From Vulcanimicrobiota bacterium (GTDB taxonomy: Bacteria; Vulcanimicrobiota; Vulcanimicrobiia; Vulcanimicrobiales; Vulcanimicrobiaceae), in assembly GCA_019240755.1 (NCBI GenBank), contig JAFAXS010000111.1, positions 1 to 50,291 of the forward strand: 50,291 nt of DNA, written 5' to 3'. Positions 1,128-46,030 of this stretch are shown here, piece by piece. The translations under genes and the position numbers were made by a program. Numbering within the stretch: position 1 is the stretch's first letter; the number at the start of each line of letters is the position of its first letter. The notes below the pieces were generated by a model. That model was not told the origin of the DNA. It was given only the letters and a program-made list of their open reading frames with translations, and searched no databases.

Positions 1128-2138
1128 TTGGACCAGACACTCTTTGTCGAGCGGCGCTCGCCCACGTGGCAGCGCTTGGACGAGTTGCTGCGGCGCATCG
1201 AGCGCCGCGGCGTGCGCGCCTTGGGCTCCGATGAAGTCTTGGAGCTGGCGCGTCTCTACCGCGCGGTTACGAGCGATCTCGCGTGTGCCCAAGGACGCGG
1301 CTACGGTGAATCGCTGCTCGAATATTTGAACCGCAGCGTGGCGCGCGCACACGCGCAGGTCTACGCGCGCGCTCCGGAGAGCGGCCTCGCGCGCATCGGC
1401 GATTTTTATGCGCGAACGTTTCCGCGCGAGGTTCGGCGTTCACTGCCCTACGTCGCGCTGTGCGCGGCCCTCACCGTCGCGTGCGCCGTCGTCGCGTTCG
1501 TCTTGGTGCGCGATCATCCGGCCGACGCCTACGCGTTCTTGCCCAAGTTCATGGTCTCCGAGCACATCCGCAAGGGTTTGCACGACTCCAACTTCGCCGT
1601 TGATCCCTCGTTCGCACCGGCGATGTCGGCGGCGATCATCGCCAACAACGTGCGGGTGGCGATCGTCGCCTTCGCGGGGTGTGTGACGCTCGGCGCGCTG
1701 ACGCTCTACATCATCTCGTTCAACGGCTTGATGCTCGGCGGCACGGCTGCGCTCTTCACCAACGGCGGTTTCGGACGCGACTTCTGGGCGACGATCGCGC
1801 CGCACGGCGTGATCGAGCTCACCGCCATTCAAATCGCCGGCGGCGCGGGGCTGCTGATTGCGGCGGGCGTCGTGTTTCCGGGCCGCCTGCGCCGGCGCGA
1901 CGCAATCGTCGCCAACGCTCGGCGTGCCGGCACCCTGATCGTCGGTGTGGCTTCGATGTTGATCGTCGCGGGCACGATCGAGGCGTTCGTTTCACCGCGG
2001 CGGCTGCCGGAATCGGTGCGCATCCTCGTTGGGGTCATCACGTTGAGCGGGCTACTACTGTATTTTGCGAGCGCCTGGCAGCGCACGTCCTTCGACTCCG
2101 CTCAGGATGACAAAGCTAAAGTAGGGCGCGGCGCTTAG
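1128..2138 (+). CDS. SpoIIM (stage II sporulation protein M) family membrane protein
   Basis: The 336-residue protein has a soluble N-terminal part (LDQTLFVERRSPTWQRL, DEVLELARLYRAVTSDLA) typical of SpoIIM-like proteins, a first hydrophobic helix near residues 108-128, then several helices with the family features NNVRVAIVAFAGCVTLG and APHGVIELTAIQIAGGAGL. The start is a TTG at 1128; the frame stays open upstream to 1041 but that part is unlike the family. The divergent RDD gene begins 44 nt away. The C-terminal tail RTSFDSAQDDKAKVGRGA is encoded by an interspersed hairpin repeat at 2088-2112, so it is probably not native to the family. The 3' end overlaps the convergent DUF58 gene by 23 nt. 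The family name does not imply sporulation: it is widespread in non-sporulating bacteria beside MoxR genes. Confidence 0.87.
   Translation: MDQTLFVERRSPTWQRLDELLRRIERRGVRALGSDEVLELARLYRAVTSDLACAQGRGYGESLLEYLNRSVARAHAQVYARAPESGLARIGDFYARTFPREVRRSLPYVALCAALTVACAVVAFVLVRDHPADAYAFLPKFMVSEHIRKGLHDSNFAVDPSFAPAMSAAIIANNVRVAIVAFAGCVTLGALTLYIISFNGLMLGGTAALFTNGGFGRDFWATIAPHGVIELTAIQIAGGAGLLIAAGVVFPGRLRRRDAIVANARRAGTLIVGVASMLIVAGTIEAFVSPRRLPESVRILVGVITLSGLLLYFASAWQRTSFDSAQDDKAKVGRGA
2088..2112 (-). repeat. Hairpin repeat copy 1 (loop type GCGGAGT)
   Basis: On the minus strand it reads TGTCATCCTGAGC then GGAGTCGAAGGA; TCCT and AGGA pair around a 12-nt loop. It encodes the last residues of the SpoIIM protein on the plus strand and begins 3 nt after the DUF58 stop codon on the minus strand, so it may act as a terminator or mRNA end for both convergent genes. 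Confidence 0.85.
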
Positions 2139-5353: not shown

Positions 5354-6126
5354 GCTTTGTCCCTCGACTCTGCTCGGGATGACAAAAAGTCAAAGGCTGT
5401 CGCAGCCGTCTGCCACTGCGGCGCGTCGATTGGGCGTTCGGCATAAGCCGTTTGCACGAACGGAGCGGCGACCGCATCGAACGCCGGAACCAGCGGTGCA
5501 CCCCTTGCGCGCAACGCGGCGCGCAGATCGCCGACCGTCGCGCTGGGAGCCCCCGCAATCAAACCGCGCCGGCTCAGCGCCGCGACGGCGGCGGCGAAGA
5601 GCCGCAGCGCGGCATTGCCGAACTCGCCCCGATTCGCGAAATAGCAGGCCTCGCGGTAGAGCGCGTCGGGATCGGCTCCCGCTTCGAGGGGTTCCGCGAT
5701 CGCGCGCCGGGCCCGGCGGCTGCGCTGCACGTTGCGCGTCAGCCGGACGCCGACCGCGAGCAGCGTCAGGCCGACGAGCGCCAACAATGCGTAGCCGATC
5801 GCGTTGGCCGCGCGTTCGCCGACGTGCGCGCGCGATGCAATGGAGCGCCACAGGTCATCCCACCGCCCCGCGATCCAGTTCCACGCGCGTTGCCACCACG
5901 GCACAGGCGGCACGTGCGCCGGAGCGAGCGTTAACCGGTAGCGGCCGGGAATCGAAAGCTCGCGGCGCGCGAGCGCGCCGAGATCCGGCGTACGCGGACG
6001 CACCCGCGACGGCGGTCCCGCAAGCCGTTCGGCTCGGTGCGCCGGGTTGGCGTGCAGCCACCGTTCGACCAGCGCCTCGCGCGACGGTGCCGCGACCGCG
6101 GTCGCGGCGACCAGCGCGGCGATCAC
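5350..6126 (-). CDS. DUF4129 domain-containing membrane protein
   Basis: The 258-residue product begins with a signal-like helix (VIAALVAATAVAA), has a short periplasmic region, a transmembrane helix near residues 123-143 (IGYALLALVGLTLLAVGV), and the cytoplasmic DUF4129 helix pattern CYFANRGEFGNAALRLFAAAVAAL. The GTG at 6126 overlaps the upstream stop (GTGA). The last residues, FLSSRAESRDKA, are encoded by an interspersed hairpin repeat (5361-5384), so the native C-terminus has probably been replaced or extended. The open frame continues upstream on the reverse strand but is a shadow of the preceding gene. Role unknown; the family is tied to MoxR/DUF58 clusters and sometimes to transglutaminase-like partners. 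Confidence 0.83.
   Translation of the reverse strand: MIAALVAATAVAAPSREALVERWLHANPAHRAERLAGPPSRVRPRTPDLGALARRELSIPGRYRLTLAPAHVPPVPWWQRAWNWIAGRWDDLWRSIASRAHVGERAANAIGYALLALVGLTLLAVGVRLTRNVQRSRRARRAIAEPLEAGADPDALYREACYFANRGEFGNAALRLFAAAVAALSRRGLIAGAPSATVGDLRAALRARGAPLVPAFDAVAAPFVQTAYAERPIDAPQWQTAATAFDFLSSRAESRDKA
5361..5384 (-). repeat. Hairpin repeat copy 2 (compensated stem)
   Basis: The minus strand reads TGTCATCCCGAGC then AGAGTCGAGGGACA. Relative to copy 1 the stem pair T-A is changed to C-G on both sides (CCC/GGG), so pairing is kept. Flanking TTTGTC and GACAAA also pair. It encodes the last residues of the DUF4129 protein and lies 8 nt upstream of the DUF4350 start codon, inside the operon. 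Confidence 0.8.
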
Positions 6127-8146: not shown

Positions 8147-8226
8147 GGCCATGGGACCGGAGCTGCCGCGCCGACGAGGTGGCAGAGTCTGGGGGATACC
8201 GGCCGAGCGCGGCATCCGGGCCCTCG

Positions 8227-8250
8227 TCCTTCGGCAGGCTCAGGATGACA
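8227..8250 (-). repeat. Hairpin repeat copy 3 (loop type GCCTGCC)
   Basis: The minus strand reads TGTCATCCTGAGC then CTGCCGAAGGA. It begins 3 nt after the stop codon of the minus-strand deacetylase and lies in the 107-nt gap before the convergent phosphoesterase stop; nothing else is evident in that gap. A terminator-like role is plausible, though no T-run follows. Confidence 0.85.
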
Positions 8251-8253
8251 ACG

Positions 8254-26356: not shown

Positions 26357-26412
26357 GGTGTGCCTCTTGCGCGTAACAGGTAAGCCGGTTGCATTGTGAC
26401 AAGCGCTGGCCG

Positions 26413-28515
26413 ATGGCGGCGCGGCGAACTCTTCGCGTAGGAATCGACGTTGGCGGCACCTTTACCGATTTGGTCGCGACAGAATCGTGGAGCGGGCGCG
26501 TCGCCACGCGTAAGGTTCCGAGCACGCCGCGGGAGCCGCAGCGCGCGGTCATTAACGCGCTGACATCCCTGCTCGCCGAATACGAGTCGCCGGCCGTCGA
26601 GTTCCTAGCGCATTCGACGACGATCGCCACCAACGCGCTGCTCGGCCAGGTCGGGCTAGAGCCGCCGCGCGTCGTGCTGATCACCACCGAGGGATTTCGC
26701 GACCTGATCGAAATCGGGCGCCAAAATCGCAGCGCGGTCTACGATCTCTTCGTCGAGCGTCCACCTCAGTTGGTCGCGCGCGGCGACCGCCTGACGGTGC
26801 GAGAGCGCCTCGACCACCGTGGAAACGTGATCGTACCGCTCGATGACGCCGGCGTGACCGGCGTGTGCGAAAAAGTTCGCGCGCGCGACGCGGCATCGGT
26901 CGCGATCTGTCTGCTTCACTCGTACGCCAACGACGTGCACGAGCGGCGCCTCGCCGAGGCCCTTGCACGCGCGCTGCCGCGCGTGCGCATCGCGCTTTCG
27001 TCGCACGTCGATCCGCAGTACCGAGAGTACGAACGCTGCTCCACGACGGTCGTCAACGCCGCGCTGGCGCCGATCGTCGAAGGCTACCTCGAGCGGCTCA
27101 TCGCGCAGCTTCGCGCGGACGGAATCGAGGCGCCCCTCTACGTGATGCGCAGCGACGGCGGGATGTCTCGCGCGACTCACATACTCACTCGGCCGGCGGC
27201 GCTGCTCGAGAGCGGTCCGGCGAGCGGCGCGATTGCAAGTGCTGCGCTGGGCGTGCGCGTGGGCGCTCGACGCCTCCTCTCGTTCGACATGGGCGGAACG
27301 ACGGCGAAGGCCGGCACCATTCTCGACGGCGTCGCGCAGGTAGCGTACGAGTTCGAGGCCGCGGGCGCGGCGCACAGCGGCCGCGCGATCAAGGGCAGCG
27401 GATACCCGGTCCGGTTTCCGTTCGTCGATCTGGCCGAAGTGAGTGCGGGCGGAGGCACGATCGCATGGCTTGACGATGCCGGCGCGCTACGCGTCGGCCC
27501 CCACTCCGCCGGCGCGGATCCCGGCCCGGCGTGCTACGGTGAGTCCGATCGAGCCACCGTCACCGACGCGAACGTCGTACTGGGACGACTGAATCAGACG
27601 CATCTGCTCGGAGGTGGCTTCCCGATCGACGCCGCGCGCGCTCGCGCGGCGATTCTGCCGCTCGCGAACGCGCTTGACGGACCGGTCGAAGCGGCGGCGG
27701 CCGGTATCGTCGCGCTGATTGACGACGCGATGGCCAAGGCGCTGCGCATCGTTACGATCGAACGCGGCATCGATCCGCGTGATTTTACGCTCGTCGCATT
27801 TGGCGGCGGCGGCCCGCTGCATGCGTGCGCGCTCGCCGACGAGCTGGAAATTCACCGCATCATCGTTCCCGCGCACCCGGGCCTCTTCTCGGCCTTCGGC
27901 CTATTGGACGCCGAGTTGCGCGTCAACGAGCTGTGGCCCGTGCTGGCCGCGGCCGATGCGCTCGACATGGATTCGATGGAGCACAACTTTGCGGACGGCG
28001 AGCAGCGCGCTCGCGCCGAGCTGCTGCAGCAGGGCGCGCACGCCGGCACGATCGCGTTTCGACGAGAGTACGACGCGCGCTATCGGGGACAGAGCTTCGA
28101 GCTTACGGTTGCGCACGATTCGGACCGCGAGCGAATCGCTCGAGAATTTCACGCCGCGCACCGGGCGCGATACGGCTACGACGCGCCGGGCGAGGTGGTG
28201 GAAATTGTGAACGCGCGCCTTACGGCGACCGGCTCAGTCATGCTTCGACAGGCTCAGCATGACACGGGGCGCACGCATCTCGCGGAGAGCGACTCCGTCG
28301 TCCTTCGACAGGCTCAGGATGACAATGAGCGCAAGGTTTGGATCGATGGCGCGTTCGTGGCCGTTCCTGTATTTGCGCGGCAAGCGTTGGCGCCCCGTAG
28401 AAAAATCGAAGGGCCGGCGATCGTCGAACAGTACGACACGACGACGTACCTCGCGCCGAGCTGGGAGATGACCGTCGAAGAAGATCTCCTTCTGCTCCAT
28501 AAAGGCAACCTATGA
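26413..28515 (+). CDS. hyuA: Hydantoinase/oxoprolinase subunit A (N-methylhydantoinase A-like)
   Basis: The 700-residue ATP-dependent subunit starts RRTLRVGIDVGGTFTDLVA (phosphate-binding loop of the ASKHA fold), continues with HSTTIATNALL, SSHVDPQYREYERCSTT and FDMGGTTAKAG, and ends with the family's IEGPAIVEQYDTTTYLAP. With HyuB it hydrolyses hydantoin, 5-oxoproline or related ring amides using ATP. The ATG at 26413 is chosen by fit to the family. Near residues 610-640, between NARLTATG and KVWIDGAF, two hairpin repeats lie in frame and encode MLRQAQHD and VLRQAQDD; the reading frame and the downstream conserved segment survive. It overlaps hyuB by 4 nt (ATGA). Confidence 0.92.
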   Translation: MAARRTLRVGIDVGGTFTDLVATESWSGRVATRKVPSTPREPQRAVINALTSLLAEYESPAVEFLAHSTTIATNALLGQVGLEPPRVVLITTEGFRDLIEIGRQNRSAVYDLFVERPPQLVARGDRLTVRERLDHRGNVIVPLDDAGVTGVCEKVRARDAASVAICLLHSYANDVHERRLAEALARALPRVRIALSSHVDPQYREYERCSTTVVNAALAPIVEGYLERLIAQLRADGIEAPLYVMRSDGGMSRATHILTRPAALLESGPASGAIASAALGVRVGARRLLSFDMGGTTAKAGTILDGVAQVAYEFEAAGAAHSGRAIKGSGYPVRFPFVDLAEVSAGGGTIAWLDDAGALRVGPHSAGADPGPACYGESDRATVTDANVVLGRLNQTHLLGGGFPIDAARARAAILPLANALDGPVEAAAAGIVALIDDAMAKALRIVTIERGIDPRDFTLVAFGGGGPLHACALADELEIHRIIVPAHPGLFSAFGLLDAELRVNELWPVLAAADALDMDSMEHNFADGEQRARAELLQQGAHAGTIAFRREYDARYRGQSFELTVAHDSDRERIAREFHAAHRARYGYDAPGEVVEIVNARLTATGSVMLRQAQHDTGRTHLAESDSVVLRQAQDDNERKVWIDGAFVAVPVFARQALAPRRKIEGPAIVEQYDTTTYLAPSWEMTVEEDLLLLHKGNL
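28238..28264 (-). repeat. Hairpin repeat copy 4, in frame inside hyuA (compensated stem)
   Basis: The arms TCATGCT (28238-28244) and AGCATGA (28256-28262) pair perfectly around the 11-nt loop TCGACAGGCTC. Compared with the common stem, the C-G pair is switched to G-C on both sides, keeping pairing. It translates to LRQAQHD in hyuA. Confidence 0.85.
28301..28324 (-). repeat. Hairpin repeat copy 5, in frame inside hyuA
   Basis: The minus strand reads TGTCATCCTGAGC then CTGTCGAAGGA. It lies 63 nt (21 codons) from copy 4 in the same frame and translates to LRQAQDD. Confidence 0.85.
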
Positions 28516-30158
28516 TGGATCGGATCTCGGCGGAGATCGTCAAGAACGCGCTCGTGTATGCCGGCGAAGAGATGGGATTGGCGGTGCGCAACAGCGCCTA
28601 TTCGCCGAACATCAAGGAGCGACTCGATCACTCGTGCGCGCTCTTCGACCGGTTCGGACGGTTGATCGCCCAGGCCGAGCACATTCCCGTGCATCTCGGC
28701 TCGTTGCCCTGGGGCTTGCGGCGAATGCTTGAGATCGTCGAACGCGAGCACGGCGGCATGCGCCCAGGCGAGATGTGGGTGGCGAACGACCCGTACGTCA
28801 CCGGCACGCACCTCAACGATGTGACGGTCGTGCGCCCGATCTTCCATCGCGGCGCGCTGCTCGGCTATGCGGCCGGTAAGGCGCATCACGCGGACGTCGG
28901 AGGATCGGTGCCGGGCTCCATGCCGGCGACCGCCACGGATCTCTTTGCAGAAGGCGTCGTCGTTCCGCCGATGCGCCTCGTGCACGACGAGCGAATCATC
29001 GGCCAGACCGTCGCGCTTTTTCGTGAAAACTCGCGCACGCCCGATGCCCGCAGCGGCGATCTGCGCGCGCAGGTCGCCGGCAATTACACCGGCGAGCGGC
29101 GGCTGTTGGAGTTGTGCGAACGCCACGGCGTCAACGCCTTGGAAGAAATGATCGCGCACGCGCTCGACTCGAGCGAGCTGCGGATGCGTGCCGCCCTCCG
29201 CGCGCTCGGCGACGGAATCTTCGAGGCCTGCGACTATCTGGAAGACTTGGACGGCAATCCGACGATTCGCATCGCGCTGCGTCTCGAGCTGCGCGATGGG
29301 AACGCGCATTTCGATTACGCGGGCACGTCGGAGCAAGTTGCGTTCCCACTCAACGCCGTCTTCGGAGTGACGCTCTCGGGCGTGTACTATGCCGCGCGCG
29401 CCGTCACCGACCCCACGATTCCGATGAACGACGGCTTCTTTCGACCGATCACGGTCCGAGCGCCGGAAGGATCGTTGCTCAATCCACACCGGCCGGCGCC
29501 CGTCTCCGGAGGAAACGTCGAGACCAGCATGCGCAACGCCGACGTCGTGCTGCTCGCTCTTGCGCGCGCCGCGCCGGGCCGCGTTCCCGCATGCAGCGGC
29601 GGCACGATGAGCAACGTCATGCTGGGCGGAACGCTCGCCGGCGGCAGAACGTGGTCGTTCTACGAGACGAATGGGTGCGGAATGGGCGCTCGCCCTACGA
29701 AAGACGGACTCAGCGGCATCCACGCGCACATGACCAATACGCTGAACACACCGATCGAGGCGATCGAGCGCGAGTTTCCGCTGCGCGTCGTTCGCTACGA
29801 GCTCGCCGACGAAACGGGCGGCAGCGGGCGGTATCGCGGAGGTGACGGATTGATTCGCTCGCTCGAGCTGACCGAAGGCTGCGCGCACGCAACGCTGCTC
29901 GCGGATCGGCACGCGGTGCAACCGTGCGGCGCAGCGGGCGGGGAGCCCGGCGCGTGCGGCCGTCACTCCTTGGTCCGCGACGGCCGCGAAACTCGGCTCC
30001 CGGCAAAAGTCAGTTTGCCCATCGAACCCGGCGACGTTCTAACGATTCAAACGCCGGGAGGCGGCGGCTACGGCTCCGCGCCGGCCGATCGCTCCACGCC
30101 GAAGCGCGCGGTGCAGAGTAAGTCAACCACGCGTATCGCGCTGCGCCGCGGCGAGTAG
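28512..30158 (+). CDS. hyuB: Hydantoinase/oxoprolinase subunit B (N-methylhydantoinase B-like)
   Basis: The 548-residue partner of HyuA begins DRISAEIVKNALVYAGEEM and shows the family features SPNIKERLDHSCALFD, DPYVTGTHLNDVTVV, GKAHHADVGG (metal-ligand His), SGGNVETSMRN and TPGGGGYG near the end. It carries the hydrolytic centre of the complex. The start overlaps the hyuA stop; a second ATG at 28515 is equally possible. Beyond TPGGGGYG there are about 30 extra residues (APADRSTPKRAVQSK and on) that overlap the convergent GT2 gene by 91 nt. Confidence 0.93.
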   Translation: MMDRISAEIVKNALVYAGEEMGLAVRNSAYSPNIKERLDHSCALFDRFGRLIAQAEHIPVHLGSLPWGLRRMLEIVEREHGGMRPGEMWVANDPYVTGTHLNDVTVVRPIFHRGALLGYAAGKAHHADVGGSVPGSMPATATDLFAEGVVVPPMRLVHDERIIGQTVALFRENSRTPDARSGDLRAQVAGNYTGERRLLELCERHGVNALEEMIAHALDSSELRMRAALRALGDGIFEACDYLEDLDGNPTIRIALRLELRDGNAHFDYAGTSEQVAFPLNAVFGVTLSGVYYAARAVTDPTIPMNDGFFRPITVRAPEGSLLNPHRPAPVSGGNVETSMRNADVVLLALARAAPGRVPACSGGTMSNVMLGGTLAGGRTWSFYETNGCGMGARPTKDGLSGIHAHMTNTLNTPIEAIEREFPLRVVRYELADETGGSGRYRGGDGLIRSLELTEGCAHATLLADRHAVQPCGAAGGEPGACGRHSLVRDGRETRLPAKVSLPIEPGDVLTIQTPGGGGYGSAPADRSTPKRAVQSKSTTRIALRRGE

Positions 30159-33929: not shown

Positions 33930-36900
33930 CTAAGGCGTAACCGGTTTCGCGCCCTCTACCGGCTTGAGACCGGCTTGCTGCAGCTCCGCTTGCAGCGGAC
34001 GCAGCGAAGCGACGTACGCGTTGTACTTCGCGACCGCGGCGTTGTACGCCGCATCGAAGCGCCGGCCGTAATCGAGCTGCGCCGCGGTCGGCGGCAGCTG
34101 CGTTCCGGCGAAGCCGGTGCGCGGCACCGACTCGCGCAGCGAGCCCGAGCGCTGGATCGAGTCTTCGTCGTTATGGTAATCCGCGGTGAAGGCCGCGAAG
34201 ACGTCGCTCCATTGCGCCTGCGCGCCGGCGACCTGCGCCCGCAGCGCGGCGGTAGCCCGCGGAGATGAGGCTGCGGCCGCCAGTGACTTCTTCATCGCGT
34301 CGAGGTTGTTGAGCGCCTCGTCGATCTTGCCGTAGATCGTCGCGTACTTGCGCGCGTAGGCGTAGCCCGCGAGGTATTCGGTTTGCGTCCAGCTGTCCCG
34401 CGGGTCGGAGGCGACGGTGAAGGATTGCTGGAGCGTCTGACCGTTCAGCGCGATGCGCGCCGTGTAGGTGCCGGGCACCACGAGCGGCCCCGCCGTCGGC
34501 CCCTGATACTCTTCCTTGGCGGCGCCGTACCATTTCAGCGGCGGATCTTCGGTGAAGTTCCAAACGTACCGGTTGATGCCGGACTTGTTGGGTATGAACG
34601 GCTCTTCCTTACCGTTGACCTTGTGCGTGCCTTTCACCGTCCGCAGCAGATGGCCGGCGGCATCGAGAATTTGCAGCTCGGGCGCCGATCGTTGCGGTGC
34701 GCTCTGATAGAAGTCAATGATCGCGCCGCGGCTCGGATTCTCGCCCGCAAAGCGGGTGTAGTTGCCCAAGTCGTTGGAGTGGTCGTGATACTCGTAGGAG
34801 GTCCGGGGCGCAAACAGCATCGCGCCGGCGCGCTCCGCGTTGCCCAGCTGTTGAATCGAACCCAGGTCGTCGAACACCCACACATCGCGCCCGTGCGTGC
34901 CGATCACGAGGTCGTTGAACTGCGGCTGGATGCGGATGTCGCGCACGGAAACGGTCGGCAAGTTGATTTTGAAACTCTCCCAGTGCGCGCCGCCGTCAAA
35001 GGAGATCCATAGGCCGTTCTCCGTGCCGGCGTAGAGGAGATACGGGTTGCGACTGTCGGGGCGCACCGTGCGCGCGTACTGGTTGGGCGGCAGGCCGTTG
35101 ACGATCTTCGTCCACGTCGAGCCTCCGTCGCGCGTCACGAAGATGTACGGCGCATAGTCGCCCATGCGGTGATTGTCGGCGACGACATACGTGGTGCTGG
35201 GCACCAGCGGCGACGGTGCGACCGTCTCGATACGCGCATACTCCGGCGTTTCCGGCGGCGTCACGTTGCGCCAGTGCGCAAGTTGTGCCGAGCCGGTCGA
35301 CGCATCGCTGGTCACCTGCACGTACCCGTCGTCGGTGCCGGCCCAGATCTCTCCACGCCGCAGCGGCGAGCCTTCGATGTCCAAGATCGTGTCGGAGTAC
35401 TCGGCGCCGGAGACGTCCTTCGCGAGCGGGCCGCCGGAGGGAACCTGATGCGCCTTCACGTCGCGCGTCAAGTCCGGACTGATCGGCGCCCACGTTTCAC
35501 CGCGGTCGCTCGACTGAAACACGACGTTGCCGCCGAACCACGCAACGGATCCACCGCCTCCGCCCGCATAGCCGCCACCTCTGCCCGACGACGATGCCCA
35601 GGGTGCGAACGCCACGGGCGAATCCCAGTTGAAGCGATACGGCACGACGCTCAGGTCGAAGGGACCGAGAAAACTCCCGGGATAGGCGTCGTAGGGGCGG
35701 ATGAAGCGGCTGACTTGCGTCGTGCGGTCGAAAACCGTCAGCGCACCATCTTCGAGATCGGCGAAGACGTAGCGGGGGTTCCCGGGATCGGGAACCGTCC
35801 ACTCACCATCGCCGCCGACGACGTCCGTCCAGTGGCGGTCGAGAATTCCCTCGCTATCGAGCGAGTTGGTCGGACCACAGAATCCGCCGTTGTCTTGAAA
35901 CGCGGCGCAGACCGCGTACGGATTCTCGTCGGAGAGACCGACGTGATATACCTGTCCGATCGTGAGGTTGCGCGAGAACGACCAATGCTTGAGGTCGTTG
36001 GTCAGCGCGTACCCGCCGTCTTCTCCCACCATGACGCGTTTGGAGTTGGTCGGATCGATCCAGATGGCGTGGTAGTCGACGTGCACGCCCTTGGCGATCT
36101 CCTTGAACTTTCGTCCGCCGTCGGTGCTCTCGGCCAGCATCTCTGAGACGGCATAGACGTGGTTGGGATTCTTCGGGTCCACGGCGATGTGGCTGAAATA
36201 AAAGGGCCGCTGATCGACGAGCGTGTCGCTGCTCGTCATCGCCCAGTGGTTGCCGGCATCGTCCGTGCGCCACAGAATGCCGCCTTTCGCCTCGATGAGC
36301 GCGAAGACGCGATTCGGACGGCTCGGCGCGATCGCGAGGCCGATGCGACCGGTCAAGCCGCTCGGCAGCCCGTTGCCCGTGAGCTTATGCCAGCTTCGCC
36401 CGCCGTCGGTTGATTTATAGAGACCGTCGTCCGGGCCGCCGCTCGTAAAGGTCCATGGCAGCCGCCGAAAGTGCCACATCCCGGCGTAGACGACGCGGGG
36501 ATCTTGCGGATTCATCGCGACGTCGCTGGCACCACTCGAAGGACTTACGTACAACGACTTGCTCCAGCTTGCGCCGCCGTCGAACGTCACAAAGACGCCG
36601 CGATCGGGTGAATCTTTGAACGGATCGCCGAACGCACCAACGACGACGTGGCGCGGATCCTTCGGATCGATCGCGATCCGTGAAATACTCCATACGCCCG
36701 CGAGCCCCACGCGCCGCCACGATCTGCCCCCGTCGGTCGATTTGTAGAGGCCGTCGCCGTAGCTCACGTCGTTGCGCGGATTCGACTCGCCGGTTCCGGC
36801 CCAAACGATGCGCGCGTTCGTCGGATCGATCGCCACCGCGCCGATCGCGGCGACCGGCTGCTTTTCGAAGACCGGCTCCCACGTCGCGCCGCCATTCGCC

Positions 36901-37064
36901 GATTTCCAGACGCCGCCGCCGGCGCTGCCGATGTAGTAGAGTTGGTCGTCTTGCGGGGTGCCCGCCACCGACGTGACGCGCCCGCCGGAGACGGCCGGAC
37001 CGATCGAGCGCCACGTCAGGTTCGCATACGCCGCCGCGGCAAACAGAACGGTGGAGAGCAGCAT
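33930..37064 (-). CDS. Large secreted BNR/VPS10-like beta-propeller protein (paralogue 2)
   Basis: The 1044-residue protein has a short signal (MLLSTVLFAAAAYA), then repeated Asp-box motifs (SANGGATW, STDGGRSW, TFDGGASW, SSDRGETW, SFDGGAHW) typical of sortilin/VPS10 and sialidase-type propellers. The first blade starts WRSIGPAVSGGRVTSVAG. The C-terminal 200 residues contain an Ig-like strand-rich part (GTYTARIALNGQTLQQSF) and a helical tail. Families of this size are often annotated glycosyl hydrolases without proven activity. The ATG at 37064 overlaps the upstream stop (TGATG), so it is coupled to the paralogue. Confidence 0.9.
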   Translation of the reverse strand: MLLSTVLFAAAAYANLTWRSIGPAVSGGRVTSVAGTPQDDQLYYIGSAGGGVWKSANGGATWEPVFEKQPVAAIGAVAIDPTNARIVWAGTGESNPRNDVSYGDGLYKSTDGGRSWRRVGLAGVWSISRIAIDPKDPRHVVVGAFGDPFKDSPDRGVFVTFDGGASWSKSLYVSPSSGASDVAMNPQDPRVVYAGMWHFRRLPWTFTSGGPDDGLYKSTDGGRSWHKLTGNGLPSGLTGRIGLAIAPSRPNRVFALIEAKGGILWRTDDAGNHWAMTSSDTLVDQRPFYFSHIAVDPKNPNHVYAVSEMLAESTDGGRKFKEIAKGVHVDYHAIWIDPTNSKRVMVGEDGGYALTNDLKHWSFSRNLTIGQVYHVGLSDENPYAVCAAFQDNGGFCGPTNSLDSEGILDRHWTDVVGGDGEWTVPDPGNPRYVFADLEDGALTVFDRTTQVSRFIRPYDAYPGSFLGPFDLSVVPYRFNWDSPVAFAPWASSSGRGGGYAGGGGGSVAWFGGNVVFQSSDRGETWAPISPDLTRDVKAHQVPSGGPLAKDVSGAEYSDTILDIEGSPLRRGEIWAGTDDGYVQVTSDASTGSAQLAHWRNVTPPETPEYARIETVAPSPLVPSTTYVVADNHRMGDYAPYIFVTRDGGSTWTKIVNGLPPNQYARTVRPDSRNPYLLYAGTENGLWISFDGGAHWESFKINLPTVSVRDIRIQPQFNDLVIGTHGRDVWVFDDLGSIQQLGNAERAGAMLFAPRTSYEYHDHSNDLGNYTRFAGENPSRGAIIDFYQSAPQRSAPELQILDAAGHLLRTVKGTHKVNGKEEPFIPNKSGINRYVWNFTEDPPLKWYGAAKEEYQGPTAGPLVVPGTYTARIALNGQTLQQSFTVASDPRDSWTQTEYLAGYAYARKYATIYGKIDEALNNLDAMKKSLAAAASSPRATAALRAQVAGAQAQWSDVFAAFTADYHNDEDSIQRSGSLRESVPRTGFAGTQLPPTAAQLDYGRRFDAAYNAAVAKYNAYVASLRPLQAELQQAGLKPVEGAKPVTP

Positions 37065-40000
37065 CAAATCGCGCTTACGGTTTTGAGCGCAGGCAACTCC
37101 TTCATGCCGGCCTGCCGCAACGCGGCGTTAACGCCGGGCACAACGTTCGTGACGAAGGCGTTATACCGGCCGACGCCCGCCCGATACTCGGCATCGGTCC
37201 GCGCGAGCCCATCGGTAACCGCAGGGGTGATCAGGCCCTGTGCCGCGTTGAACGCGCCGAAGAGATCCTCGTGCAGTCTCCCTTCGTCCATCGTGCCTTC
37301 ACCCCGAATGTTCACGGCGAGCGAATCGAACAGCGTCTGGCGTGCCGTCTGCGCGTCCTGCAGTTTCGCTGATAGCGCTGCATTGTTCGCCTTCGTCGCC
37401 GTGCCGGCGGCCGTATCCAGCGCCTTCTTGAGACCGTCGAGATTGTTGAGGATTGTGTCGACGTTCGACAAGTGCGCCATCTGCCGCATCGCCGTATCGA
37501 AGGTCCGCTGATACTCGGCTTGCGTAAACTGCGAGCGCGGGTCGGGCGCGACCCGGAAACGCTGCAGATAGGTGTGACCCGAAAGCGTCATGCGAACCGC
37601 ATACTCCCCGGGCACGACTCCGGGACCGGTCTCCGGACCCTTGCTGAAGTCGTTGCCGCCATTCCATCGCACCGGACCGTTGACCGTAAAGTCCCAAGTA
37701 TAGCGGTTCAAACCTACCTTGTTCGTTACGTAGGGCTCGTCTTTGTCGTTGACCTTGTGCGTGCTGGAAACTGTGCGCATCACTCGGCCGTGCGAATCGA
37801 GGATCTCGAGCTTCGGTGCGCCCTTCTGCGGCTCGCTTTGATAGAACGTGATCACGACGCCGTTTGGCGGGTTGTTCGCCGCATAGTTGGTGTAGGTGCC
37901 CTCATCGTTCTCGTGGAGCGACCACTCGTAGGAGGTGCGCGGCGTAAACAGCCACGTTTTTTGCGCGATCGCTCGTTGCAGTTCTTGCAGCGGCCGCACG
38001 TCGTCCATGACGTAGACGCTGCGGCCGTGCGTCGCGATCACGAGATCGTCGTCGCGCGGCTGCAGGCGAATGTCGTGAACGGAGACCGGCGGCAAGTCGT
38101 TCTTAAAGGACTGCCAGTGCGCGCCGCCGTCGAAAGAGATCCAAATTCCCTCTTCCGTTCCTGCATACACGAGATTGCGATCGCGAATGTCGGGACGCAC
38201 GGCGCGCGCCCACTGATCGGCCGGCAGCCCATCTACGATCTTCGTCCAGTGCCGGCCGAAGTCGTGCGTGACGAAAACGTACGGCGCGTTATCGCCCATC
38301 TCGTGGGCGTCGGCGATGGCGTACGCCGTTCCATCCACCAGCGTCGAGGGCGCGACCGTCGCGAAGCGCCCGAACTCCGGCGCGCCGGTCGGAGTGACGT
38401 TCGACCAATGTTTGCCGCCGTCGCGCGTCATCTGCACCAACCCGTCGTCGGTGCCGACCCAGATCTCGCCTCGCGTGCGTTGCGAGCCTTCGATGTCAAG
38501 GATCGTATCGCTGTACTCGGCGCCCGACACGTCGTTGACGATCGGCCCGCCCGCGGGCTGCTGATACGCCTTGACGTTGCGCGTTAAGTCGGGACTGATG
38601 ACCGTCCACGAGCGCCCGCGATCCGTGGTTTGAAACACGACGTTGCCGCCATACCATCCGATGACCTTGTTGTTCGACGAGCGCCACGGTGCGAACGCGA
38701 TCGGCGATTCCCAGTTGAAACGATACTTGCTCTTCGCGAGCGTCCACGACTCCGCTCCGGAGAGCAGATACGGTTGCGCGAACCAGCCGTCTTGCGTCAC
38801 GCGGTTGTAAATCGCGAGCGCGCCGTCTTGCGAGTCGGACCAGATCCAGTTGGGATCGTCCGGCTCCGGAATGCCCCACGTTCCGTCACCGCCCACGGTC
38901 ACGATCCAATATTTGTTCTGAATGCCGGACGGATCGAGCGAGTTCGATGGGCCGCACCAGCCATTGTTGTCTTGCAAGCCGGCGCAGACCGTATACGGGT
39001 TGTCGCTGCCCAAACCGACACGGTACACCTGCCCGATCGGAACGTTCGCGGAGAAGAACCAGTTCTGGCCGCCGTCGAGCGTCAGCACATAACCGCCGTC
39101 TTCGCCGAGGATGATCCGCGAGGGATCGTTCGGCGCGATCCAGATGGCATGGAAATCGGAGTGGACGCTGTCGCCGACCGTTCTGAAAGTCTGACCTCCA
39201 TTCGCACTCATGCGAACTTCAAAGGAGACCGCGTAGACCCGATTCGGATTGCGCGGATCGACCTCGACGTGCGAAAAGTAAAAGGGCCGCGCGTCCACTC
39301 GGGAATCGTTGCTGACCATCTTCCACGATCCGCCGCCGTCATCGGAGCGCCAGAGAACCCCTTCCTTCGACTCGATCACGGCGTAGACGCGGTTGCCGTC
39401 GCTCGGAGCGACGGCGACGCCGATCCGGCCCATCGGAGACGCCGGCAAACCGTGACCCTCGAGCTTGGTCCACGTTGCTCCGCCGTCGGTTGATTTGTAG
39501 AGGCCGTCCTCCGAACCGCCGCTGACGAACGTCCAGGGGCGCCGTTGAAACTTCCAAATTCCCGCGTAGACGACGCTCGGGTTCTGCGCGCTCATCGCGA
39601 GATCGGAGGCGCCGCTCTCCGGGCCGACGGCCAGCGTCTGCTTCCACGTTCGGCCGCCGTCATCGGTGACGTAGACGCCGCGTTCCGTGTTATCGTGGAA
39701 GACGTCGCCGAGCGCGCCGACGATTACGTGGTTGTGGTTGCGCGGGTCGACGAGAATCCGAGAGATGTAGCGCGTCGCTTCGAGCCCCACGTGAGACCAA
39801 TGCTCGCCGCCGTCGGTCGTCTTGTAGACGCCATCGCCGTAACTGACGTCGTTGCGCGGATTGGATTCGCCCGTTCCGACCCACACGATCTTCTCGTCGG
39901 TCGGATCGATCGTGACGGCGCCGATCGCCGCGATATTTTCCTTGTCGAAGACGGGGTCCCACGTTTGACCGCTGTTCTCAGATTTCCACACGCCACCGCC

Positions 40001-40279
40001 GGCTGCGCCGAGGTAGTACAGCTTCGAATTCGCCGCGGTTCCCGCAACGGACGTGACGCGGCCGCCGGCGGTCGCCGGCCCGATCTCTCGCCAGCTCATG
40101 TTGCCGAACGGCGGACCCGGCGACGGGGACGGCGTGGGCGACGGCGTCACAACGGGCTTTGGCGGCGACGGCGATGGGGGCAACGGCGACGCCGTTGGAT
40201 TGGCGGCGTACGCGCGAGCGCCGGCGCTCGATGCAACAATCAAAAAAAACGCCGCTACACGCAGCACGCTCTTCAACAA
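37064..40279 (-). CDS. Large secreted BNR/VPS10-like beta-propeller protein (paralogue 1)
   Basis: The 1071-residue protein has a signal peptide (LKSVLRVAAFFLIVASSAGARA), a Pro/Ser linker of about 25 residues, then the same propeller order as its downstream paralogue: WREIGPATAGGRVTSVAG, GTGESNPRNDVSYGDGVYKT, and Asp-boxes TTDGGEHW, TDDGGRTW, STDGGATW, TRDGGKHW. The two proteins align end to end, so they arose by tandem duplication. The start is TTG at 40279, preceded by AGGAGG 9 nt upstream. Only this copy has the Pro/Ser linker. A surface role such as glycan or peptide binding is likely; catalysis is unproven. Confidence 0.9.
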   Translation of the reverse strand: MLKSVLRVAAFFLIVASSAGARAYAANPTASPLPPSPSPPKPVVTPSPTPSPSPGPPFGNMSWREIGPATAGGRVTSVAGTAANSKLYYLGAAGGGVWKSENSGQTWDPVFDKENIAAIGAVTIDPTDEKIVWVGTGESNPRNDVSYGDGVYKTTDGGEHWSHVGLEATRYISRILVDPRNHNHVIVGALGDVFHDNTERGVYVTDDGGRTWKQTLAVGPESGASDLAMSAQNPSVVYAGIWKFQRRPWTFVSGGSEDGLYKSTDGGATWTKLEGHGLPASPMGRIGVAVAPSDGNRVYAVIESKEGVLWRSDDGGGSWKMVSNDSRVDARPFYFSHVEVDPRNPNRVYAVSFEVRMSANGGQTFRTVGDSVHSDFHAIWIAPNDPSRIILGEDGGYVLTLDGGQNWFFSANVPIGQVYRVGLGSDNPYTVCAGLQDNNGWCGPSNSLDPSGIQNKYWIVTVGGDGTWGIPEPDDPNWIWSDSQDGALAIYNRVTQDGWFAQPYLLSGAESWTLAKSKYRFNWESPIAFAPWRSSNNKVIGWYGGNVVFQTTDRGRSWTVISPDLTRNVKAYQQPAGGPIVNDVSGAEYSDTILDIEGSQRTRGEIWVGTDDGLVQMTRDGGKHWSNVTPTGAPEFGRFATVAPSTLVDGTAYAIADAHEMGDNAPYVFVTHDFGRHWTKIVDGLPADQWARAVRPDIRDRNLVYAGTEEGIWISFDGGAHWQSFKNDLPPVSVHDIRLQPRDDDLVIATHGRSVYVMDDVRPLQELQRAIAQKTWLFTPRTSYEWSLHENDEGTYTNYAANNPPNGVVITFYQSEPQKGAPKLEILDSHGRVMRTVSSTHKVNDKDEPYVTNKVGLNRYTWDFTVNGPVRWNGGNDFSKGPETGPGVVPGEYAVRMTLSGHTYLQRFRVAPDPRSQFTQAEYQRTFDTAMRQMAHLSNVDTILNNLDGLKKALDTAAGTATKANNAALSAKLQDAQTARQTLFDSLAVNIRGEGTMDEGRLHEDLFGAFNAAQGLITPAVTDGLARTDAEYRAGVGRYNAFVTNVVPGVNAALRQAGMKELPALKTVSAI

Positions 40280-46000: not shown

Positions 46001-46030
46001 TGTCGTCCTTCGACTCCGCTCAGGATGACA
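46001..46030 (-). repeat. Hairpin repeat copy 6, full 9-bp stem
   Basis: TGTCGTCCT and AGGATGACA pair with one G-T wobble around TCGACTCCGCTC. It begins 2 nt after the TAG stop of the propeller lipoprotein and ends 17 nt before the TPP riboswitch, so it separates the two transcripts; a terminator role is likely. Confidence 0.88.

Follow-up and report, generated by a model that had tools for sequence, protein, structure and literature searches.

The RPEs of Rickettsia are palindromic repeats that lie in frame in conserved protein genes, where they are tolerated, and that also occur as intergenic copies (Ogata et al. 2000, reviewed in PMC2229807). Two of them, RPE-4 and RPE-6, are counted among the CGTC-tagged REPs, in which CGTC is often altered to TGTC (Di Nocera et al. 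2013, PMC3733652). Intragenic REPs of both the GTAG and CGTC classes are known in several bacteria, and REPs located at about the same site of recB in two Xanthomonas species provide a precedent for the sharing of a site (PMC3733652). A survey of the open-access literature returned nothing relevant on palindromic repeats in Eremiobacterota or on the exact repeat string described below.

The element analyzed here resembles the Rickettsia RPEs in forming in-frame palindromes within conserved protein genes and in having intergenic copies as well. It differs from them in size and host, measuring 27-28 nt in another phylum as compared with 105-146 bp and 12-bp terminal repeats for the RPEs (PMC2229807), and, unlike RPEs as described, it recurs across a genus at a single protein linker, in both orientations. 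The window corresponds to the full length of contig C10 (50,291 nucleotides) of the source genome G000, an assembly of 2.59 Mb in 174 contigs.

Two palindromes in frame in hyuA

The hyuA open reading frame (26389..28515, plus strand) encodes a subunit A of the hydantoinase/oxoprolinase/carboxylase type with the Pfam domains Hydant_A_N, Hydantoinase_A and Hydant_A_C. Its relatives in the PDB include N-methylhydantoinase (7hk5) and caprolactamase (6yra), and acetone and acetophenone carboxylases are further solved relatives. The downstream gene hyuB (28512..30158, plus strand; Pfam Hydantoinase_B) overlaps the hyuA stop by 4 nt and adjoins hyuA in all relatives examined by tblastn (14 genomes including its own, the others at 73-80% identity).

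A sequence-only reading had placed two in-frame hairpin repeats in hyuA, encoding LRQAQHD and LRQAQDD. Both indeed lie inside the frame, which stays open through them, and translate as VMLRQAQHD and VVLRQAQDD; their start-to-start spacing is 60 nt instead of the 63 nt claimed. Each is a 27-nt imperfect palindrome. Copy 1 (GTCATGCTTCGACAGGCTCAGCATGAC; 28237..28263, plus strand; codons 617-625) has perfect 8-nt arms and belongs to the GTCATGC..GCATGAC subfamily, and copy 2 (GTCGTCCTTCGACAGGCTCAGGATGAC; 28297..28323, plus strand; codons 637-645) has one mismatch in the arms and belongs to the CC..GG subfamily. The same reading equated the AQDD frame with that of a copy in the C-terminal tail of a SpoIIM-family gene (2086..2112, plus strand). 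This is correct for the 3' half of the element and incorrect for the 5' half (SFDSAQDD versus LRQAQ(H/D)D), because the SpoIIM copy has a longer loop and is one base longer.

An element family dispersed through the genus

With up to three mismatches allowed, the 21-nt core matched the window at three positions (8229, 28243 and 28303) as compared with 0.00 expected from 100 dinucleotide shuffles; the longer-loop form gave three further matches (2090, 5362 and 46008). In the 2.59-Mb genome, the exact pattern CTTCGAC N2-5 GCTCAGGRTGAC was found 23 times and its reversed-pattern control 0 times. A chance origin of the matches is thus excluded. Besides the hyuA pair and the SpoIIM tail, the window holds one copy between ORFs (8221..8251, plus strand), a diverged copy close to where two ORFs of the minus strand meet (5358..5384, plus strand) and a copy that separates ORFs of the minus strand and lies 2 nt ahead of an ORF end (46004..46030, plus strand). 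Elsewhere in the genome, the start of contig C13 (locus L005) and the end of contig C89 (L016) carry the element within one shared 45-nt context; the assembly was therefore probably interrupted at this point, and C13 and C89 may adjoin one another. The window also contains two adjacent minus-strand ORFs of 1045 and 1071 aa (33930-40279). Several blocks of their DNA, spaced about 3.1 kb apart, are 70-83% alike; on this evidence the pair is a gene duplicated in tandem, with short internal repeats.

The element is present in all 18 genomes of the genus, with 10-162 exact copies each on both strands and 0 hits of the reversed-pattern control. Within the family, its occurrence in the other genera is sporadic, with few copies or none, and it is almost absent from the remainder of the class and phylum. 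Being 27-28 nt long with 8-nt arms, it falls within the broad sense of REPs, that is, dispersed high-copy palindromes of 20-40 bp. Many copies are intergenic, the intragenic share being judged from the retrieved loci alone by ORF and Pfam. Stem changes are compensated: 187 copies read CATCC..GGATG, 47 read CATGC..GCATG and three are mixed. It is thus the hairpin itself that spread preserves. On each strand, two frames of the short form are open, and a TGA within the element closes the third.

To place the element among the tagged REPs, we profiled the ends of 102 loci. TGTC was found in 85 and CGTC in three, followed by AT in 55 or AC in 34; the loci were partly selected by a GAC pattern, and the end is often paired. 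With this reservation the TGTC end may be shared with the CGTC REPs, which the element resembles as a short high-copy palindrome with intragenic units and no dedicated transposase. Unlike the CGTC REPs, it has an interrupted stem into which GTC/GAC is often paired as part of the palindrome (31/102), and an unpaired CCA-like tail is seen in only one of the 102 copies. Arrangement differs too, since CGTC REPs are mostly head-to-head with negligible head-to-tail pairs (PMC3733652), whereas adjacent pairs in the genus comprise 38 in the same and 7 in opposite orientation. Same-orientation arrays of three to six copies at about 30-nt spacing occur on contig C1 of G010 (e.g. 2189291-2189431 and 2626051-2626292), in a layout that differs from the dimers reported for tagged REPs; G006 likewise carries same-orientation arrays. 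GTAG REPs with a RAYT are similar to the element in size, dispersal and intragenic copies and different in their GTAG end, which was not seen here, and in their transposase. The Y1_Tnp/RAYT domain (PF01797) was detected in 0 of the 18 genus genomes and only in other families of the class, and a RAYT mobilizer was rejected on this ground. The organism is a member of a Candidatus Eremiobacterota genus without a detectable RAYT transposase. The missing CCA tail and head-to-head arrangement together set the element apart as a REP-like family of its own.

The HyuA linker as a recurrent site

Both hyuA copies lie in a hypervariable linker (28231..28335, plus strand) of 35 aa, bounded by a conserved strand (..NARLTA) and by the motif (K/R)(V/L)W(I/L)DG. 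Its length ranges from 24 to 39 aa among 34 Eremiobacterota orthologues. In the predicted HyuA structure (mean pLDDT 84), the repeats are positioned between the strands 604-615 and 647-652, with pLDDT below 50 at residues 621-644; the alignment behind the model held 21 sequences, and the low linker values may partly be due to this shallowness. The variable length and the predicted disorder between strands agree with the proposal of a tolerated linker.

We located the linker by alignment columns in the 34 orthologues and scored element matches by a local-alignment scan. Strong matches with scores of 27-49 were obtained in seven orthologues (this genome, G013, G004, G006, G001, G015 and G026). 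These scores exceed every other window of the respective gene, the maximum elsewhere being 24 over all genus genes, and all seven reached the smallest possible shuffle p value of 0.005. Weaker, decayed forms were found in G002, G014, G017 and, by eye, G009, and G022 was borderline (score 22, p 0.010). The scan gave no linker element above background in G008, G005, G016, G007, G010 and nearly all more distant genomes. In x79, from a neighboring genus (locus L079), the hyuA linker contains two copies of a related palindrome, GTCATCCCGAGCGCAGCGCG. In this linker the palindrome family, GTCATCCCGAGCGCAGCGCGAAGCGC, is a different one and lies in direct repeat at 27-nt spacing. Orientation and reading frame of the linker copies differ across species; G000 and G013 both encode VMLRQAQHD, with two synonymous differences. 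Relatives therefore do not all carry one identical stretch devoid of insertion signs: at the same linker the number of copies is zero, one or two, and copies may be nested, on the opposite strand or decayed. This comparison supports the earlier view of a palindrome turned into coding sequence within a tolerated linker, tolerance being judged from the open frames.

A HyuA tree built without the linker columns was used to follow this history. The sisters G013 and G004 (support 100/100) carry the element in opposite orientations, plus and minus, respectively. The sisters G017 and G015 have a common outer minus-strand element, to which G015 adds a plus copy in the loop, lengthening the linker by 27 nt; the G001 linker copy is also nested. 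In G026 and x79, a minus element occupies one and the same point. The minimum number of changes on the tree is five for presence/absence and seven for the states none/plus/minus. Part of the occupancy may be inherited, as suggested by the common element of G026 and x79 and by the shared VMLRQAQHD of G000 and G013. Overall, the history of the linker is one of turnover at a single site, through either new insertion or local rearrangement or a combination of the two. Because identity to the nearest orthologues is about 70%, this genome's own copies have no clean pair of empty and filled sites.

Copies at other coding sites

The phaC gene of G000 (L019 19-1845, minus strand, contig C123) contains a tandem overlapping pair, PFDSAQPFDSAQGD, in the linker just before PhaC_N. 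A comparison of 15 orthologues showed that G017 has a clear copy in this phaC linker and that G001 and G003 have looser matches there, whereas the remaining orthologues lack the element at this site. By sequence comparison, phaC shows the same behavior as hyuA, at one linker, and in both genes the insertions are in frame in a conserved gene with the frame kept. Further copies are located in C-terminal tails, in the SpoIIM-family gene of the window and in an MmyB-like regulator. In G013, a copy was observed at about residue 500 of a 932-aa ORF (L119) encoding a nuclease-helicase, between the RNase_H_2 and AAA helicase parts and directly ahead of the latter; this is possibly another interdomain linker site.

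Discussion

A mobile-like REP palindrome has very probably spread through this Eremiobacterota genus and been repeatedly inserted or turned over at a permissive linker of HyuA. The element would spread as a single-stranded DNA hairpin, with some transposase or replication template-switching as the candidate agent. Insertions that hit essential parts of a protein or bring in the stop-bearing frame would not persist. In the flexible linker, which connects two strands of the C-terminal domain, insertions would survive, the roughly nine added residues being harmless. Given losses elsewhere and two open frames per strand, the linker can be understood as a survivor site that gains and loses copies and in which they become nested or duplicated, the peptide itself being presumably under little selection or none. 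The pair in this genome would then stem from two insertions, or from a single insertion followed by an in-frame tandem duplication of 60 nt.

For a tandem duplication, to which we give slightly less than an even chance, the units would be 28214..28273 (containing copy 1) and 28274..28333 (containing copy 2), both on the plus strand. They are identical at 46/60 positions, and their flanks outside the palindrome at 22/33, with a mean of 10.1 expected from in-frame pairs of the same gene (p about 9e-5); moreover, 60 nt is 3 x 20, which preserves the frame, and same-orientation neighbors are common in the genus. The two copies nevertheless belong to separate subfamilies, both genus-wide and told apart by a compensated pair in the stem, and a duplication would leave the earlier linker with just 15 aa, as against 24-39 in relatives. 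Flank identity thus suggests duplication and the different stem subfamilies suggest separate origins; at 28214-28333 no one history accounts for both features. A single ancestral linker insertion, inherited genus-wide and reshaped by inversion, nesting, duplication and decay with few or no new insertions, would fit the clustering of linker copies in one clade (the genus plus G026/x79), the mere five presence/absence changes and the shared forms, namely one decayed form in G002, G014 and G009, one outer element in G017 and G015 and one element in G026 and x79. We nonetheless consider it rather unlikely, since clean palindromes with different loops are hard to derive from one copy at such high divergence, close sisters (G013 and G004) differ in orientation, two compensated subfamilies are present and the three-state minimum rises to seven changes.

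Repeats in a metagenome-assembled genome may also invite assembly errors, and several contig ends do coincide with element copies. An artefact is, however, the least credible account of the hyuA repeats: neither copy interrupts the reading frame, hyuB comes next with its usual overlap and the same linker is also occupied in independent genomes, some of which, such as G013, are assembled in few contigs. Repeated insertion or turnover at a permissive site also fares far better than co-option, whereby the peptide would be a functional linker or the mRNA hairpin a pausing or stability element before hyuB. The identical VMLRQAQHD of G000 and G013 despite synonymous differences would favor co-option, as would the predicted RNA folding of the two copies (-10.9 and -10.7 kcal/mol; z about -2.4 and -2.1). 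We hold it to be very improbable, as other species have other frames and orientations or lack the element, and Rfam gave no match in 28000-28600. The variation of frame and orientation among species was the reason for rejecting peptide co-option as the main reading. With the peptide not conserved across species, "tolerated" is better supported than "co-opted", and neutral tolerance is our preferred reading.

In-frame palindromes are already known from Rickettsia and other bacteria; as an instance of them, the series seen across the genus at this one linker is unusually clear. It widens the range of protein-coding palindromes to Eremiobacterota, an uncultured phylum, through an element that cannot be placed cleanly in either of the published classes of tagged REPs. 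The host is described as a genus of soil bacteria, through whose genomes the repeat is dispersed. Improbable as we judge it, REP palindromes could even act as a standing generator of linker variation, certain linkers in housekeeping enzymes (HyuA, PhaC) being repeatedly rewritten by insertion, nesting and duplication, that is, by REP turnover and not point mutation, perhaps with a site preference of the mobilizing machinery. Sister species with their own copies in the same linker provide another case of "selfish" palindromes tolerated as coding sequence. Because a single protein site presents the whole series of empty, one-copy, two-copy, opposite-strand, nested and decayed states, the survival rule for in-frame selfish palindromes can be read directly from it.
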